A stretch of 43,152 nucleotides of DNA. Source: a virus. The position numbers were made by a program, and so were the translations under genes. The stretch covers positions 1 to 43,152 of IMG/VR virus record IMGVR_UViG_3300046318_000209; one strand, given 5' to 3'. Below, piece after piece: positions 5,899 to 35,451 of this stretch (position 1 is the stretch's first letter; the number at the start of each line of letters is the position of its first letter). The notes beneath the pieces are model-generated. The model saw only the letters and a program-made list of their open reading frames with translations, had not been told where the DNA came from and did no database searches.

Positions 5899-5927
5899 TT
5901 GCCCATTAATGGAATCCAAGGGATAAT
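5899..5927 (+). promoter_or_regulatory. early sigma70-type promoter P10 driving a non-coding RNA
   Basis: TTGCCC 5899-5904, 17-bp spacer, GATAAT 5922-5927, then AGAGTCATACTAAGG. Unlike the other copies it is not followed by a credible gene; the next one starts at 6411. Its product is therefore predicted to begin with the structured RNA described next. Confidence 0.85.
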
Positions 5928-6140
5928 AGAGTCATACTAAGGCAACAACGAGTACTTTGAGTAGATGAAAACCGACCCGGGAGAGACTTCCCGGGCTTCG
6001 CGAAAGCGACGAACGATAAGCAAAGTCGGTCCAGTAGGGTAAGGAAAGTTGAAGCTAGCGGAAAGAGCTGCTGGCCAGGACAGAAGTTTGGGCACATCCT
6101 CGGAGGGGGTGGTTAGTCTTAACGCCGTGTAATCCTGGCA

Positions 6141-6246
6141 CCATATTGAAGCACATTAGCCTGACTGAAACGGGCATCGAGTACGTGGAACGTGGAAGAA
6201 GGTTCGATTCCTTCATACTCAATTTCAGTAGTGTGCTTCAATATGG
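6141..6246 (+). ncRNA. tRNA-like domain inside a 15-bp stem
   Basis: CCATATTGAAGCACA (6141) pairs perfectly with TGTGCTTCAATATGG (6232). Inside, ACTGAAA 6164 pairs with TTTCAGT 6223; GAGTA 6179 pairs with TACTC 6216; and GAAGG-TTCGATT-CCTTC (6198-6214) is a textbook tRNA T-arm. Only 14 nt separate GAGTA from the T-arm, too few for D and anticodon arms, so this is tRNA-like rather than a tRNA. Confidence 0.65.
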
Positions 6247-6311
6247 TTGTCATTCCGTGGTTTACTCCACCAGACCGACACGCCTTGAGCGTATCGAAGT
6301 AAGGTTTGACT

Positions 6312-6395
6312 CCATATTGAAGCACATTCGCTGAAGTTGGTTCAGCAAGACGGGGAGATCCAATTGCCTACGTCGTTGAGTGTGTTTCAATATGG
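6312..6395 (+). repeat. second copy of the 15-bp stem with a different insert
   Basis: CCATATTGAAGCACA (6312) with TGTGTTTCAATATGG (6381). The only difference from the first copy is C to T, which keeps a G-U pair. The insert differs: GCTGAA-GTTGG-TTCAGC hairpin (6330-6346) and GACG 6349 with CGTC 6371. Confidence 0.7.
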
Positions 6396-6410
6396 ATCAA
6401 GGAGTTTGAT

Positions 6411-6569
6411 ATGTTCGTTGTAAGAGAAGTTGAATACGGTGGTGATGTGGACGGTACCGGTCCCGAGCGTTGGTTGGGCAGGGCATTGGGTTGTTTCGAC
6501 ACTTGGGATCAAGCCTTGGACTTTATCGACACCCAATGGACTGAATGTGAAGTTGTTGAGGAGCAATAA
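6411..6569 (+). CDS. small acidic hypothetical protein, 52 aa
   Basis: ATG 6411 follows CAAGGAGTTTGAT, a good ribosome-binding site immediately after the structured RNA. Begins MFVVREVEYGGDVDG, with Trp residues and an acidic tail (CEVVEEQ). First gene downstream of the RNA, so it may be read through from P10. Unrecognised. Confidence 0.65.
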   Translation: MFVVREVEYGGDVDGTGPERWLGRALGCFDTWDQALDFIDTQWTECEVVEEQ

Positions 6570-15282: not shown

Positions 15283-15708
15283 ATGCCTAGACAAAAGACA
15301 CTGTGCGACATTGGTGGTTGTGAGAACTTGACGAGTGGAAAGTTGTGTAAGTCACATGATCTCGCGCGGCGGGCTTCGGATAAAACACCACAAGAATATC
15401 GTAGACAATGGCATCTGTATAACAAATATGGATTGACGGTAGAAGAGTTTGATGCTTGGTGGATAGTATTTAAGGGTAGGTGTGGTATTTGCAGGAGCTT
15501 GATGAAAATGCCGACCAATACTCGTGGTCAAGCTCTTGACGTTGTAGCAGTTGATCATGACCACGGTACCGGGAAAGTTCGTGGATTGTTGTGCAATGCC
15601 TGCAATAAGGGCCTGGGACTGTTCAGGGATAATATTAAAAACTTAAATGGAGCCATCAAATGGCTGGAGATGTGTAATGAGAAAACTAGCAACCATTCGA
15701 AAAATTGA
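15283..15708 (+). CDS. recombination endonuclease VII-like nuclease, 141 aa
   Basis: N-terminus has a C...C...C..H zinc-like cluster. GRCGICRS (about residues 67-74), VAVDHDHGTGKVRGLLCNACNKGLG and FRDNIKNLNGAIKWL make the classic Endo VII/HNH core: a zinc knuckle of two CxxC pairs around the DHDH catalytic motif. T4 gp49 resolves branched DNA during packaging; small relatives may instead be homing endonucleases. ATG 15283 chosen since the frame upstream is inside the 14834 gene. Overlaps the RNA ligase gene by 32 bp. Confidence 0.85.
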   Translation: MPRQKTLCDIGGCENLTSGKLCKSHDLARRASDKTPQEYRRQWHLYNKYGLTVEEFDAWWIVFKGRCGICRSLMKMPTNTRGQALDVVAVDHDHGTGKVRGLLCNACNKGLGLFRDNIKNLNGAIKWLEMCNEKTSNHSKN

Positions 15709-16732
15709 CAATGTTAAAGCAATCCCCGAAGCAGATAAAATCTGTGCCTATCAAGTAGGTGGGTGGTGGGTTGTCGATGCGGTGGGTAAGTATAAAATCA
15801 ACGACCTTGTGGTTTTCTGTGAGGTGGACTCGTTCGTACCAACTGCCCTGGCTCCGTTTCTGACCAAACCTGGCCACTTCGCGAAGACATACTCCGTCAC
15901 AAACGAAGATGGCACTGTTACCACAATTGAGGGTGAACGTCTCCGTACTGTCAAGTTACGCGGTCAGCTATCGCAAGGTCTGCTACTGCCAATTCCGGAA
16001 GACACTATCAAGGGTGCTGGTAGTCTGATTGCTGATGGGCTGGATGTAACTGACCACCTCGGTATTTTGAAGTGGGAGGCTCCAGTCAATGCTCAGCTAG
16101 CTGGTATGGCAAGGGGCAATTTCCCAACTGCAGTTCCGAAGACTGATCAGGAACGTATTCAGAATTTGACTCGCGAGCTCCAGAAGTGGACCATGGACGA
16201 AACAACTTGGGAAGTGACTGAGAAGCTTGACGGATCATCATGCACATTCTTTATGGATGGTGAAGGAGAGTTTCATGTCTGCAGCCGTAACCTGAACTTG
16301 AAGCAGGATGAATTTAACACATTTTGGAAGGCCGCTGTCCATTACAATGTCGAAAGCACCATGCGTACTTTTGGCTTGTTAAATGTAGCAATCCAAGGTG
16401 AGTTGATTGGTGAAGGTATTCAGGGTAACCCATACGGTATCAAAGGCCATGAATTTCATTGCTTTGACATTTACGACGTGAAGTTGGGTCAGTACATGAA
16501 GCCAAACGATCGTCGTGCCACATGTGAGTTCATGAAGATCAAGCACGTGCCGGTGATCGAAAAGAACTGGCGTCTGGTTGAGAATACTACCAAGCTGCTT
16601 TCAATTGCTGAGGGCAAGTCTGTACTAAATGTTGGTACAGAGCGTGAGGGCCTTGTTTTTAAAAATAACAAGGAGCACAACGTTTCTTTTAAGGCTATCT
16701 CAAACAAATTCCTCTTGAAAGGTGGTGACTGA
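15677..16732 (+). CDS. RNA ligase, DRB0094/Rnl5 type, 351 aa
   Basis: Seals RNA 3'-OH/5'-phosphate nicks through a covalent AMP-lysine. Residues 1-130 form the OB-fold N-terminal domain typical of the Deinococcus-type ligase (VGGWWVVDAVGKYKINDLVVF). The nucleotidyltransferase motifs are visible: I EKLDG with Lys183, CSRNLNLK, III IQGELIGEG, IV EGLVFKN and V VSFKAIS. Length fits the family. Start at ATG 15677 overlaps the nuclease gene. It is one of two unrelated RNA ligases in the window. Confidence 0.9.
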   Translation: MRKLATIRKIDNVKAIPEADKICAYQVGGWWVVDAVGKYKINDLVVFCEVDSFVPTALAPFLTKPGHFAKTYSVTNEDGTVTTIEGERLRTVKLRGQLSQGLLLPIPEDTIKGAGSLIADGLDVTDHLGILKWEAPVNAQLAGMARGNFPTAVPKTDQERIQNLTRELQKWTMDETTWEVTEKLDGSSCTFFMDGEGEFHVCSRNLNLKQDEFNTFWKAAVHYNVESTMRTFGLLNVAIQGELIGEGIQGNPYGIKGHEFHCFDIYDVKLGQYMKPNDRRATCEFMKIKHVPVIEKNWRLVENTTKLLSIAEGKSVLNVGTEREGLVFKNNKEHNVSFKAISNKFLLKGGD

Positions 16733-29225: not shown

Positions 29226-30089
29226 ATGTCTAAAGAATTAGTGACTCGAAAAGAGTCGGTGCGATGGCCGGGGTTGTTTGTAAAGAAGTACACACGCCGT
29301 GTTTTCTTCGACAACCTGTGGCATGAGAATGCTGAACTGATGGAAGCACGTGGCCACGTTGAGCTTGCTGATGGCACTGTCGTGGTCCGTCCGTTTACAA
29401 AGATCTTCAACCGTGGAGAAAATGGTACAGACATTGACCGGGATGAAGTTTGCCTGTCTGTGCGCAAGGTGAACGGCTTTATGGCTGCTGCTACGTGGGT
29501 TGACGAAGTGTGTGATGTTGTTGTTTCTACGACGGGTTCATTAGACTCAGACTTCGTGACGTTGGCAGAGAAGTATATCAACGAGGATGTCAAGTCTTAT
29601 ATCAAGTCGATGATGTACTTGGAGCCGGGTACATTTCTTTTTGAAATCGTCGACCCATCTGACCCACATATTGTACCGGAAGACACTGGTGCATATTTGA
29701 TTGGTTTCCGACCAGTTTACAGTGACGCTGCTTACACCACAAGCGTCACTAAAGAAATGGACCTCGACAGCACAGCTAGGGCTATGGGTGTTAAGCGTCC
29801 AGAGTGGAAAATTCAAAAGTTTGGCGATGTGGTGTATGAGGCATCTACGTGTAAGCATGAGGGGTATGTAGTTTACGGGCTACAAACCGGAAAGTCTTTG
29901 AAGATCAAGTCTCCATATTACCTGCACCTGAAAATGGCAGCTCGTAAGAAAGATATCATGTCTTTGAATAAAAAGCGGATCGATGAGGAGTACTACCCAT
30001 TGATTGATCACTTGACCGAAATGGGTGAAGCGTTTACAATGATGGATGAACAAGCGCGTTTGGATTACATGCGATCATGGCTAAGCTAA
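29226..30089 (+). CDS. RNA ligase, T4 Rnl1-like, 287 aa
   Basis: The region before the active site, ARGHVELADGTVVVRPFTKIFNRGEN, follows the T4 Rnl1 pattern of RG...VRP..KFFN.NEN. Motif I is RKVNG (Lys81), III FLFEIVDP, IV EGYVVY (Glu212) and V LKIKSPYY (Lys226/228). Shorter than T4 Rnl1 (374 aa), mostly missing the C-terminal domain that binds tRNA. T4 Rnl1 repairs tRNA cut in the anticodon loop by host PrrC. Its own early promoter fits a counter-defence role. Confidence 0.85.
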   Translation: MSKELVTRKESVRWPGLFVKKYTRRVFFDNLWHENAELMEARGHVELADGTVVVRPFTKIFNRGENGTDIDRDEVCLSVRKVNGFMAAATWVDEVCDVVVSTTGSLDSDFVTLAEKYINEDVKSYIKSMMYLEPGTFLFEIVDPSDPHIVPEDTGAYLIGFRPVYSDAAYTTSVTKEMDLDSTARAMGVKRPEWKIQKFGDVVYEASTCKHEGYVVYGLQTGKSLKIKSPYYLHLKMAARKKDIMSLNKKRIDEEYYPLIDHLTEMGEAFTMMDEQARLDYMRSWLS

Positions 30090-33751: not shown

Positions 33752-33978
33752 ATACCACTAAGGATGGTTTCAGCAACTTAAAATACAATCGTACTAAAGT
33801 AGAAGCGTTTATCAGTCACAGCTTCACGCTCTTCGGAGTGACGTCACACAGAAACTGGGTACCTTGCAGGTGGTTATGAACCTGATATTGGGAACGGTAG
33901 AAATCGAACCTCAGTGGTAGCTGAGTACAGCCCTACGGGCGACCATCCTGCAATTGAATTCTTAGGTTGAATTCTGCA
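33752..33978 (+). ncRNA. candidate structured leader or Y-RNA-like RNA
   Basis: Non-coding 300-nt stretch between P21 and the Ro-like gene. Hairpins visible: CTC-TTCG-GAG 33829-33838 (UUCG tetraloop), CAGGT/ACCTG 33867-33884, CTCAG-TGGTAG-CTGAG 33910-33925, GCCC-TAC-GGGC 33930-33940, and TGCA(ATT)GAATTC-TTAGGTT-GAATTCTGCA 33949-33978. TGGTAG and CTCAG recall tRNA D-arms. Ro-type proteins bind Y RNAs that can be encoded next to them and carry tRNA-like modules; that link is inferred. Confidence 0.6.
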
Positions 33979-34044
33979 ATCAAAACCTATGGCGTCTACC
34001 AGGACATTAAACTGGCATCAACCTGTAACATTATGGAGAAAGAT

Positions 34045-35451
34045 ATGAACGCATTTGTAAACGCGGCAGTTCAACTGCCTGACTCGTACACTGAAAACGG
34101 TGCAGAAACTTTTGCATCGTCACTGAACACCAACGTCGACTTGTTTTTCCAAGTCGGTGCATCTCGCGGCAAAGCTGTCGAGGTTGCAAAGGTGTTCGCT
34201 CAAGCGTACCGCGAGAACCCTTCACTGGCTGTTCGCATTGCTTTGTGGGCACGTGATGCTCGCGGTGGTGCTGGTGAGCGTGAAGTGTTTAAGGAAATGG
34301 TTAAGCTGATGCCTCGCCAGGTTCAGCTTGGTGTGATTCCAAAGGCTGTTGAGCTCGGTCGTTGGGATGACTTGGAAATCTTGGTTAACTCCACAGACGA
34401 CCTCGTTTCGCAAACTGCGGCAATCTACTGGAAGAACGCTGTTCTTGCAGGCCACGGTTTGGCAGCAAAGTGGGCTCCTCGGAAGGGAGACACAGCCATC
34501 AAGTTGCGCACTCTTTGGGGTATGACTCCAAAGCAGTATCGCAAGACTGTTGTTACTGCAACCGATGTTGTGGAACAAAAGATGTGCGCGAAGGAATGGG
34601 ATGCAATTGAGTTTGCACACGTTCCATCAGTTGCTGCTTCACGGTACAACAAGGCATTTTTGAAGAATGCTACAGTCAAGTATGGTGAGTACAAGGAAGC
34701 GCTGGTTAAGGGTGAAACCAAGATCAATGCATCCGCACTGTTCCCACACGACGTTGTTCGCGGCCGCGAACAAGCCGTCGATCATGATGTGATGAACGAA
34801 CAATGGAAGGCTTTGCCTGACTTCTTAAACGGTAAGAACAACGACATCCTTGTGATGTCCGACGTCTCCGGTTCTATGAGTGTTCAGGTGTCTGGTAGCG
34901 TAATTGCTATGGATGTGTCTATCGCATTGGGTCTGTATATCTCCGAACGTCAGTCTGGAGCGTTTAAGGATCTTGTGTTGACCTTCTCTTCAACTCCAAA
35001 GTTCCACAAGGTGCATGGCGCAGGAGTTGTTGATCGTATCAACAACCTGTCTCGCGCAGATTGGGGAATGTCAACTGACGTCAACAAGGCTTTCAAGCTG
35101 ATTGTTGATAATGGTGTCAAGAACAACGTCCCTGCGGCTGAGATGCCAAAGATGCTGTTGATCTTGTCAGATATGGAATTCGACCACTGTGGTGGCGGAA
35201 CCAACTTCCAAGTATCCCAAAAGATGTTTGCGGCAGCTGGCTACGAAATGCCAAAGGTCGTATTCTGGAATCTGAACTCGCGCACTAAGAATGTACCTGT
35301 TCGCCATAACGAGCAAGGGGTTGCCCTGGTTTCTGGCTTCTCGCCAGCGATCTTGAAGTCTATTTTGGGAGTGGAAGAATTCACTCCTGAGAAGATCATG
35401 CTCGATGCTGTGATGTCGGATCGCTATGCAATCCCAGGTGTAACAGCATAA
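34045..35451 (+). CDS. Ro60/TROVE-like DUF2828 protein with vWA domain, 468 aa
   Basis: N-terminal helical repeat region with ALWARDARGGAGEREVF and ELGRWDDLEIL, the signature shared by DUF2828 and TROVE proteins. The C-terminal vWA domain carries an intact MIDAS (DVSGSMS, Asp273-Ser275-Ser277) and SDMEFDHCGG. Ro60 binds Y RNAs and misfolded RNAs through its ring of helices. ATG 34045 follows TATGGAGAAAGAT; the frame opens upstream at 33967, but that part lies in the structured leader. Terminator at 35470. Confidence 0.8.
   Translation: MNAFVNAAVQLPDSYTENGAETFASSLNTNVDLFFQVGASRGKAVEVAKVFAQAYRENPSLAVRIALWARDARGGAGEREVFKEMVKLMPRQVQLGVIPKAVELGRWDDLEILVNSTDDLVSQTAAIYWKNAVLAGHGLAAKWAPRKGDTAIKLRTLWGMTPKQYRKTVVTATDVVEQKMCAKEWDAIEFAHVPSVAASRYNKAFLKNATVKYGEYKEALVKGETKINASALFPHDVVRGREQAVDHDVMNEQWKALPDFLNGKNNDILVMSDVSGSMSVQVSGSVIAMDVSIALGLYISERQSGAFKDLVLTFSSTPKFHKVHGAGVVDRINNLSRADWGMSTDVNKAFKLIVDNGVKNNVPAAEMPKMLLILSDMEFDHCGGGTNFQVSQKMFAAAGYEMPKVVFWNLNSRTKNVPVRHNEQGVALVSGFSPAILKSILGVEEFTPEKIMLDAVMSDRYAIPGVTA

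Follow-up and report, generated by a model that had tools for sequence, protein, structure and literature searches.

Why does a phage place a member of a promoter family ahead of several hundred nucleotides with no gene in them? The question is raised by a stretch near the left end of the window, by which we mean the whole IMG/VR contig that was analysed (G000; 43,152 bases), whose PHROG matches are T4-like: RNA ligases, PhoH and a single-strand binding protein. The promoter element, TTGnCC/GATAATAGAGTCATA, occurs in 15 near-identical copies in this 43,152-nt window; 14 of them reach an ATG within ~35 nt, the sole exception being the copy at 5922, behind which the first credible ATG is at 6411. 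An earlier, sequence-only reading had singled out this copy as the gene-less member of the family, and the count agrees with it. The ~460 nt between the promoter (5899-5935) and the ORF at 6411 are gene-free: none of the six reading frames is open throughout, and each holds 3 to 9 stops. A conserved ORF through the interval, which that reading had named as fatal to its proposal of a structured RNA, is therefore not there. The features of the region are as follows.

5899..5935, + strand: sigma-70-type phage promoter (TTGCCC ... GATAAT, AGAGTCATA), one of 15 near-identical copies
5936..6139, + strand: scaffold domain of ~204 nt, a proposed new RNA family with 8 other IMG/VR stretches
6140..6247, + strand: clamp cassette 1, a 19-bp helix (6140-6158/6229-6247) with ACCA at its start and TGGT at its end
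6159-6228, + strand: payload 1, within cassette 1
6248..6311, + strand: linker domain, consisting of a GTGG...CCAC hairpin, a second hairpin with a conserved bulge and a closing helix
6312..6395, + strand: clamp cassette 2, a helix (6312-6328/6379-6395) around payload 2
6400..6569, + strand: Shine-Dalgarno sequence AAGGAG and a 52-aa ORF (6411-6569), directly 3′ of the RNA

The 52-aa ORF, which has no match in PHROG, may lie on one transcript with the RNA upstream of it. INPHARED, searched with the whole window and with the RNA, gave no match.

A chain of four structured units

All four long-range helices that had been read by eye (5971-5976/6025-6030, 6075-6080/6133-6138, 6140-6158/6229-6247 and 6312-6328/6379-6395) are present in the window and backed by homologues. 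The two smaller motifs reported with them are also real: a GNRA-capped hairpin, GCGAAAGC, and the T-arm GAAGG-TTCGATT-CCTTC (6198-6214). The folding energy of the 476-nt stretch is −174 kcal/mol vs −138 ± 6 for shuffles (z −5.6), a z that owes much to two long hairpins; folded alone, the window scaffold has a z of −1.0 and that of L042 a z of −3.0. The decisive test of RNA structure is the comparison of homologues rather than the folding z, and here covariation, on which the sequence-only reading had staked its proposal, was observed as compensatory changes in the scaffold, the payloads, the linker and the clamp.

Scaffold homologues were retrieved with a 20-nt invariant piece (6025-6044), which returned 8 stretches of viral contigs; with the window these make seven distinct scaffold sequences of the form ACUAAGGCAA...UCCU(GG). 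The domain contains P1 (5942-5947/6047-6052), P2 (5971-5975/6026-6030), which is invariant in sequence, a hairpin (5976-5995) and P5 (6075-6080/6133-6138), and the block GTCGGTCCAGTAGGGTAAGGAAA (6025-6047) is invariant. With helix arms placed by hand, compensatory changes were seen across the seven sequences in four helices (P1, the CCC/GGG hairpin, P5 and P6); the long single-stranded blocks are invariant across the same set and in this resemble blocks seen where an RNA forms tertiary contacts or is bound by a partner. When 943 kb of related loci were searched with a 111-position covariance model built on the 3′ half of the scaffold, its own members scored 98-126 bits, and nothing else turned up beyond one 12.9-bit match at chance level.

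The scaffold closes with the helix CCAGGA/UCCUGG followed by C-A-CCA, directly ahead of cassette 1, an arrangement that mimics an acceptor end. A tRNA search of the window RNA (ARAGORN, RF00005) found no cloverleaf; beyond the T-arm, its only tRNA-like part is a scaffold stem of 7 bp that resembles an acceptor stem and has a CCA. No tRNA was seen in the window, and no tRNA or tmRNA gene adjoins the RNA there; it is the scaffold-terminal CCA that cassette 1 follows instead.

What stands next to the scaffold differs among homologues, being various genes or tRNAs. In L042 it precedes a gene unrelated to the 52-aa ORF, and in L151, L153 and L154 it sits within tRNA arrays; the one constant downstream gene that a leader or riboswitch should have was not found. 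The Shine-Dalgarno sequence and ATG within 16 nt of cassette 2 could suggest that the RNA is a long 5′ leader or riboswitch of the ORF at 6411; given the changing neighbours, and given that cassettes lie mostly between tRNAs, we consider this highly improbable. In L152 (− strand) a scaffold hairpin hosts a complete second structured unit, inserted via a private helix. Short ORFs that look HNH-like by eye lie directly 3′ of the scaffold in L154 and L155 and are possible homing endonucleases.

A clamp cassette is a conserved ~17-bp helix enclosing an unrelated structured payload, and both window helices, 6140-6158/6229-6247 and 6312-6328/6379-6395, have the same clamp arms, CCATATTGAARCACATT...AGTGTGYTTCAATATGG. 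Payload 1 contains a pseudoknot (CTGAAA 6165-6170/TTTCAG 6223-6228) and a stem (6179-6183/6216-6220) in addition to its canonical T-arm; in a diverged copy in L059 the T-stem and the lower stem are compensated and the pseudoknot is unchanged. In payload 2 the loop (6336-6340) of the hairpin GCTGAA-GTTGG-TTCAGC pairs with CCAAT (6360-6364), and a further stem joins GACG (6349-6352) to CGTC (6371-6374); this payload is also found in L040 and L187, with other outer clamps and with compensatory changes. The linker has homologues in L202, L253 and L156 with compensatory closing pairs, and in L202 and L253 it is placed between two cassettes, as in the window. Helix arms for these payload and linker comparisons were picked by hand.

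Rfam 15, searched at gathering and permissive thresholds, returned no family match for the interval, only chance matches to miRNA and lncRNA families; the comparison that had been proposed thus leaves the interval outside all Rfam 15 families. The covariance models of GOLLD, ROOL and OLE did not match either, in agreement with the earlier failure to recognize a GOLLD or ROOL RNA. From the idea of a multi-domain structured RNA, perhaps of a new class, we retain a presumably promoter-driven, gene-free, multi-domain RNA outside Rfam, but not a single compact class, as there are four separable units, found elsewhere singly and in other combinations and orders. The window RNA is real and evolutionarily conserved, four units in a chain, each of which recurs in phage tRNA arrays; the tRNA neighbourhood expected for such an RNA is found with its relatives, which lie beside tRNAs.

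GOLLD and ROOL are large phage ncRNAs of unknown function found near tRNA islands, and GOLLD linkers can contain tRNAs (PMC12286853). One could suppose that the window RNA is a structural RNA of this type, assembling via its scaffold, with the cassettes as appended domains: it is likewise phage-borne, large, multi-domain and associated with tRNA islands, and in L069 a gene-free region (1-1160) strings together four cassettes along with several domains. Still, GOLLD and ROOL each have one conserved fold, whereas here we see a modular chain of small units that occur singly and in varied order and have no Rfam match, which makes this supposition very unlikely. The L069 stretch, in which structured units follow one another over ~1.1 kb before a tRNA array begins, matches nothing in Rfam, lacks a long ORF and is a candidate giant RNA in its own right.

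Clamp cassettes behind tRNA ends and in permuted tmRNA genes

IMG/VR was searched with the exact arm pattern (at least 120 matches) and then with a pattern having three free positions per arm (at least 119 further stretches), the two scans together giving at least ~240 cassette-bearing contig stretches. Among the first-scan matches the clamp is common and the interiors differ. We counted at least 275 clamp copies in at least 126 loci, with at least 139 payload clusters; all these counts are lower bounds from fragmentary contigs with near-identical ones among the matches, and absences are soft.

Pairing percentages at the 14 core clamp positions are biased because detection required near-complete pairing. 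The outer positions are free of that bias, and outside the search pattern the copies among the matches listed covary (AT 63, GC 38, CG 28, TA 12). In the free-position scan the first and third positions switch jointly from A-U to G-C (14 and 6 G-C pairs among the matches listed). The middle one, clamp position 10, carries an A.C mismatch in 65 of the 109 variant clamps listed and C.A in 10 (an example is CATAT-AAA-.. / ..-TCT-ATATG); the clamp helix therefore includes a non-Watson-Crick step at a fixed place, and the conserved A.C suggests a recognition feature. With all three free positions required to pair, the test was not significant (22 observed; re-dealing gave an expectation of 16.7), a result explained by the conserved mismatch in the middle; the outer two covary on their own counts. 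Conserved inverted arms, variable interiors and many sites are also what one would see with MITE-like mobile DNA elements whose terminal inverted repeats resemble a helix. However, the arms keep fixed-position G.U wobbles along with the A.C mismatch and compensate beyond the core, and their exact register behind tRNAs argues for a role at the RNA level, so that we give mobile DNA the least credence of all the explanations considered; the cassette as such may still be mobile.

That register is set by the CCA end: of the at least ~240 cassette stretches, most begin exactly there. Among the matches listed, 92 of 101 first-scan cassettes that had a tRNA close by on the 5′ side started exactly after A76, the terminal A of CCA; in the second scan the figure was 96 of 129. 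In the loci among the matches listed a clamp arm lies directly 3′ of 70 of 1,177 distinct tRNAs, and all 70 encode CCA, which pairs with UGG at the far end of the cassette. All 119 second-scan loci among the matches listed contained tRNAs.

Permuted tRNAs were rejected as a general explanation, since many cassettes have a complete tRNA in front of them. A self-cleaving ribozyme behind the CCA was set aside by reasoning, as the helix is unbroken across the junction.

The same position is occupied by the IVS of permuted tmRNA. The transcript of a permuted tmRNA gene is cut by tRNA-processing enzymes and the IVS is lost; the IVS has been known solely as a discarded spacer, with single cases of a tRNA or a repeat inside (PMC11915505). 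L187/L298 carry a permuted tmRNA whose IVS matches window payload 1 at 100% identity: the window and L187 agree in 74/74 nt (80 nt with the inner clamp), and their outer clamps differ. In L187 the payload sits between ...CAGGUCCACCA and GGGCCUGACACAGGAUCGA, as the IVS of a permuted tmRNA (RF04321, positions 812-1112, 98.1 bits at a cut-off of 47) in which the tag ANDSQFALAA is readable. The window copy of cassette 1 has the terminal helix at the CCA (the ACCA...TGGT ends) that such IVSs have; there is no tmRNA in the window, and its payload 1 is therefore homologous to an IVS and not an IVS at this place.

In 31 of 50 contigs that carry cassettes, permuted tmRNA scored above the cut-off. Each of the 21 IVSs that were parsed is closed by a terminal helix (9-15 bp), and the payloads of six were also seen in cassettes beside tRNAs or in the window. 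Cassettes are thus like the IVSs of permuted tmRNA (RF04321; RF01849-RF01851) in lying directly behind a CCA, in having a terminal helix and, in six cases, in the payload; they are unlike them in occurring also after ordinary tRNAs and within a free-standing RNA, in their conserved clamp sequence and in their shuffled payloads. In five contigs (L276, L277, L282, L289 and L300) the IVS opens with an apparent Shine-Dalgarno sequence and a short ORF, as if it were a slot for gene cargo; such segments seem to contain an ORF in place of an RNA payload, which speaks against a general RNA cargo.

Cultured phages gave a single match, and it too is a permuted-tmRNA IVS: Erythrobacter phage vB_EliS-L02 has it in an array of 31 tRNAs; these tRNAs and the tmRNA lie in an unannotated stretch (L148, 69841-76600), followed by proteasome-like and RtcB genes. 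The cassettes have stayed invisible because they are almost absent from cultured phages (this one weak clamp match in 50,697 records) and the exact pattern occurs in none of 84,980 bacterial and archaeal genomes scanned. A literature search on the clamp sequence and the cassette system, which covered few subscription journals and preprints, found no description of either; the clamp sequence led to one unrelated paper.

Payloads are not tied to their surroundings. Among the matches listed, 27 of 52 payload clusters with several members were seen in more than one context, and each of 18 upstream units other than tRNAs carries at least two payload types. One payload type was found behind different tRNAs; the window and L042 have a common scaffold and unrelated payloads in the cassette that follows; and between a Ro-like gene and tRNA-Gly the payloads of L133 and L135 differ in otherwise similar surroundings. 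Judged by these sequence comparisons, payloads have been exchanged among tRNA spacers, tmRNA IVSs and the free-standing window RNA.

Possible release of the payloads and what they may do

We think it somewhat probable that the window RNA is a ncRNA built from exchangeable domains (scaffold, two clamp cassettes and linker), its cargo released by processing of the tRNA type and its payloads swapped between phages. The payload would be held closed by the ~17-bp clamp that begins at the CCA end; the enzymes of tRNA and tmRNA end maturation could excise the cassette, cleaving on the 3′ side after the CCA and, by RNase P, at the 5′ end that follows; and excision would yield a closed, stable small RNA in which the helix protects the payload. 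Phages would swap payloads by recombining within the clamp or close to it. Excision of the tRNA type is least certain for the window RNA itself, because no tRNA gene or tmRNA adjoins it. More speculatively, a freed payload might act in trans, for example as a decoy or as an RNA that binds tRNAs or ribosomes.

The strongest rival is a pure spacer role, in which the clamp is a maturation or insulation hairpin behind the CCA and the interior drifts without function. The exact position behind the CCA is what such a spacer would have, the discarded tmRNA IVS offers an analogy, and the mean folding z of the payloads is slightly negative only (−0.29 ± 0.08), which is expected if pseudoknots matter and equally if many payloads are loosely structured. 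Several payloads, however, have compensatory changes around invariant loops; T-loops occur in 10 of the 139 payload clusters among the matches listed vs 0.28 expected; and the identity of payload 1 between the window and L187, despite different outer clamps, is stricter than a spacer needs. We regard a spacer role as unlikely in general, while it may hold for some payloads.

The protein content of the window brings in another rival. The ORF at 33967-35451 (+ strand) is Ro60/TROVE-like, with DUF2828 and DUF7788 and the MIDAS motif DVSGSM, and its AlphaFold model has structural matches in 9kop, a TROVE domain, and 9l5y, the Ro60 protein of Thermus phage phiLo. Two RNA ligases are encoded on the + strand at 15647-16732 and 29226-30089 (phrog_968; phrog_562 / RNA_lig_T4_1); together with the Ro-like gene they make an unusual RNA-repair content for a phage.

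YrlA RNAs, which are Y RNAs working with Ro60/Rsr, carry an end bearing a T-arm and a long stem that pairs their ends. Cassettes could accordingly be Y-RNA-like partners of a phage Ro60/TROVE protein, with Ro binding the clamp helix and the payload forming the end that mimics a tRNA. The window RNA has a long end-pairing stem and, in payload 1, a T-arm, as YrlA has; a gene whose product is predicted to fold as TROVE/Ro60 is in the same phage; and in three phage lineages (L133, L135/L136/L147 and L137) the cassette starts ~32-35 nt after a Ro-like gene. But many payloads are without a T-arm, Rfam gives no Y-RNA match, the Ro-like gene and the RNA of the window lie 28 kb apart, and among 27 large cassette-bearing contigs DUF2828 was detected in one and TROVE in none. 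The lack of a detectable Ro-like protein in most carriers weakens a Y-RNA role, which appears to us quite improbable. RtcB, tried as a partner of the cassettes, was rejected, being present in one of the same 27 contigs; no protein partner common to the cassette carriers was found.

Two known systems are comparable in part. RNAs C and D of phage T4 are stable non-tRNA RNAs co-transcribed with a tRNA cluster, and they would be like the cassettes in this; we know of no clamp cassette or shuffling reported for them. Integron attC cassettes are recombining modules with conserved folded arms around variable inserts; in our cassettes the payload is an RNA rather than a gene, and no integrase or recombination core was seen.

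Returning to the reading of an exchangeable, releasable cargo, the diversity of the payloads, with their T-loops and pseudoknots, and their location in the translation islands of phages are consistent with RNAs that interact with proteins handling tRNAs or ribosomes, and they might serve as decoys for host defence; this we offer as a possibility of rather modest likelihood. Hundreds of uncultivated phages carry such exchangeable structured pieces behind tRNA ends and in split tmRNA genes. One could speculate, with comparable reserve, that large uncultivated phages share an RNA cargo of clamped, hypervariable payloads, placed behind the CCA of tRNAs and in the IVS of tmRNA, freed by tRNA-processing enzymes and traded as weapons or shields against host defences that target RNA. 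If the reading as an exchangeable, releasable cargo is right, the tRNA arrays of large phages would be, beyond stores of tRNAs, expression platforms for a large and so far unannotated set of small structured RNAs with at least 139 payload types, and the IVS of permuted tmRNA would be a cargo slot rather than scrap; the cassettes would then provide a searchable signature, a processing route and candidates for RNA-based counter-defence.
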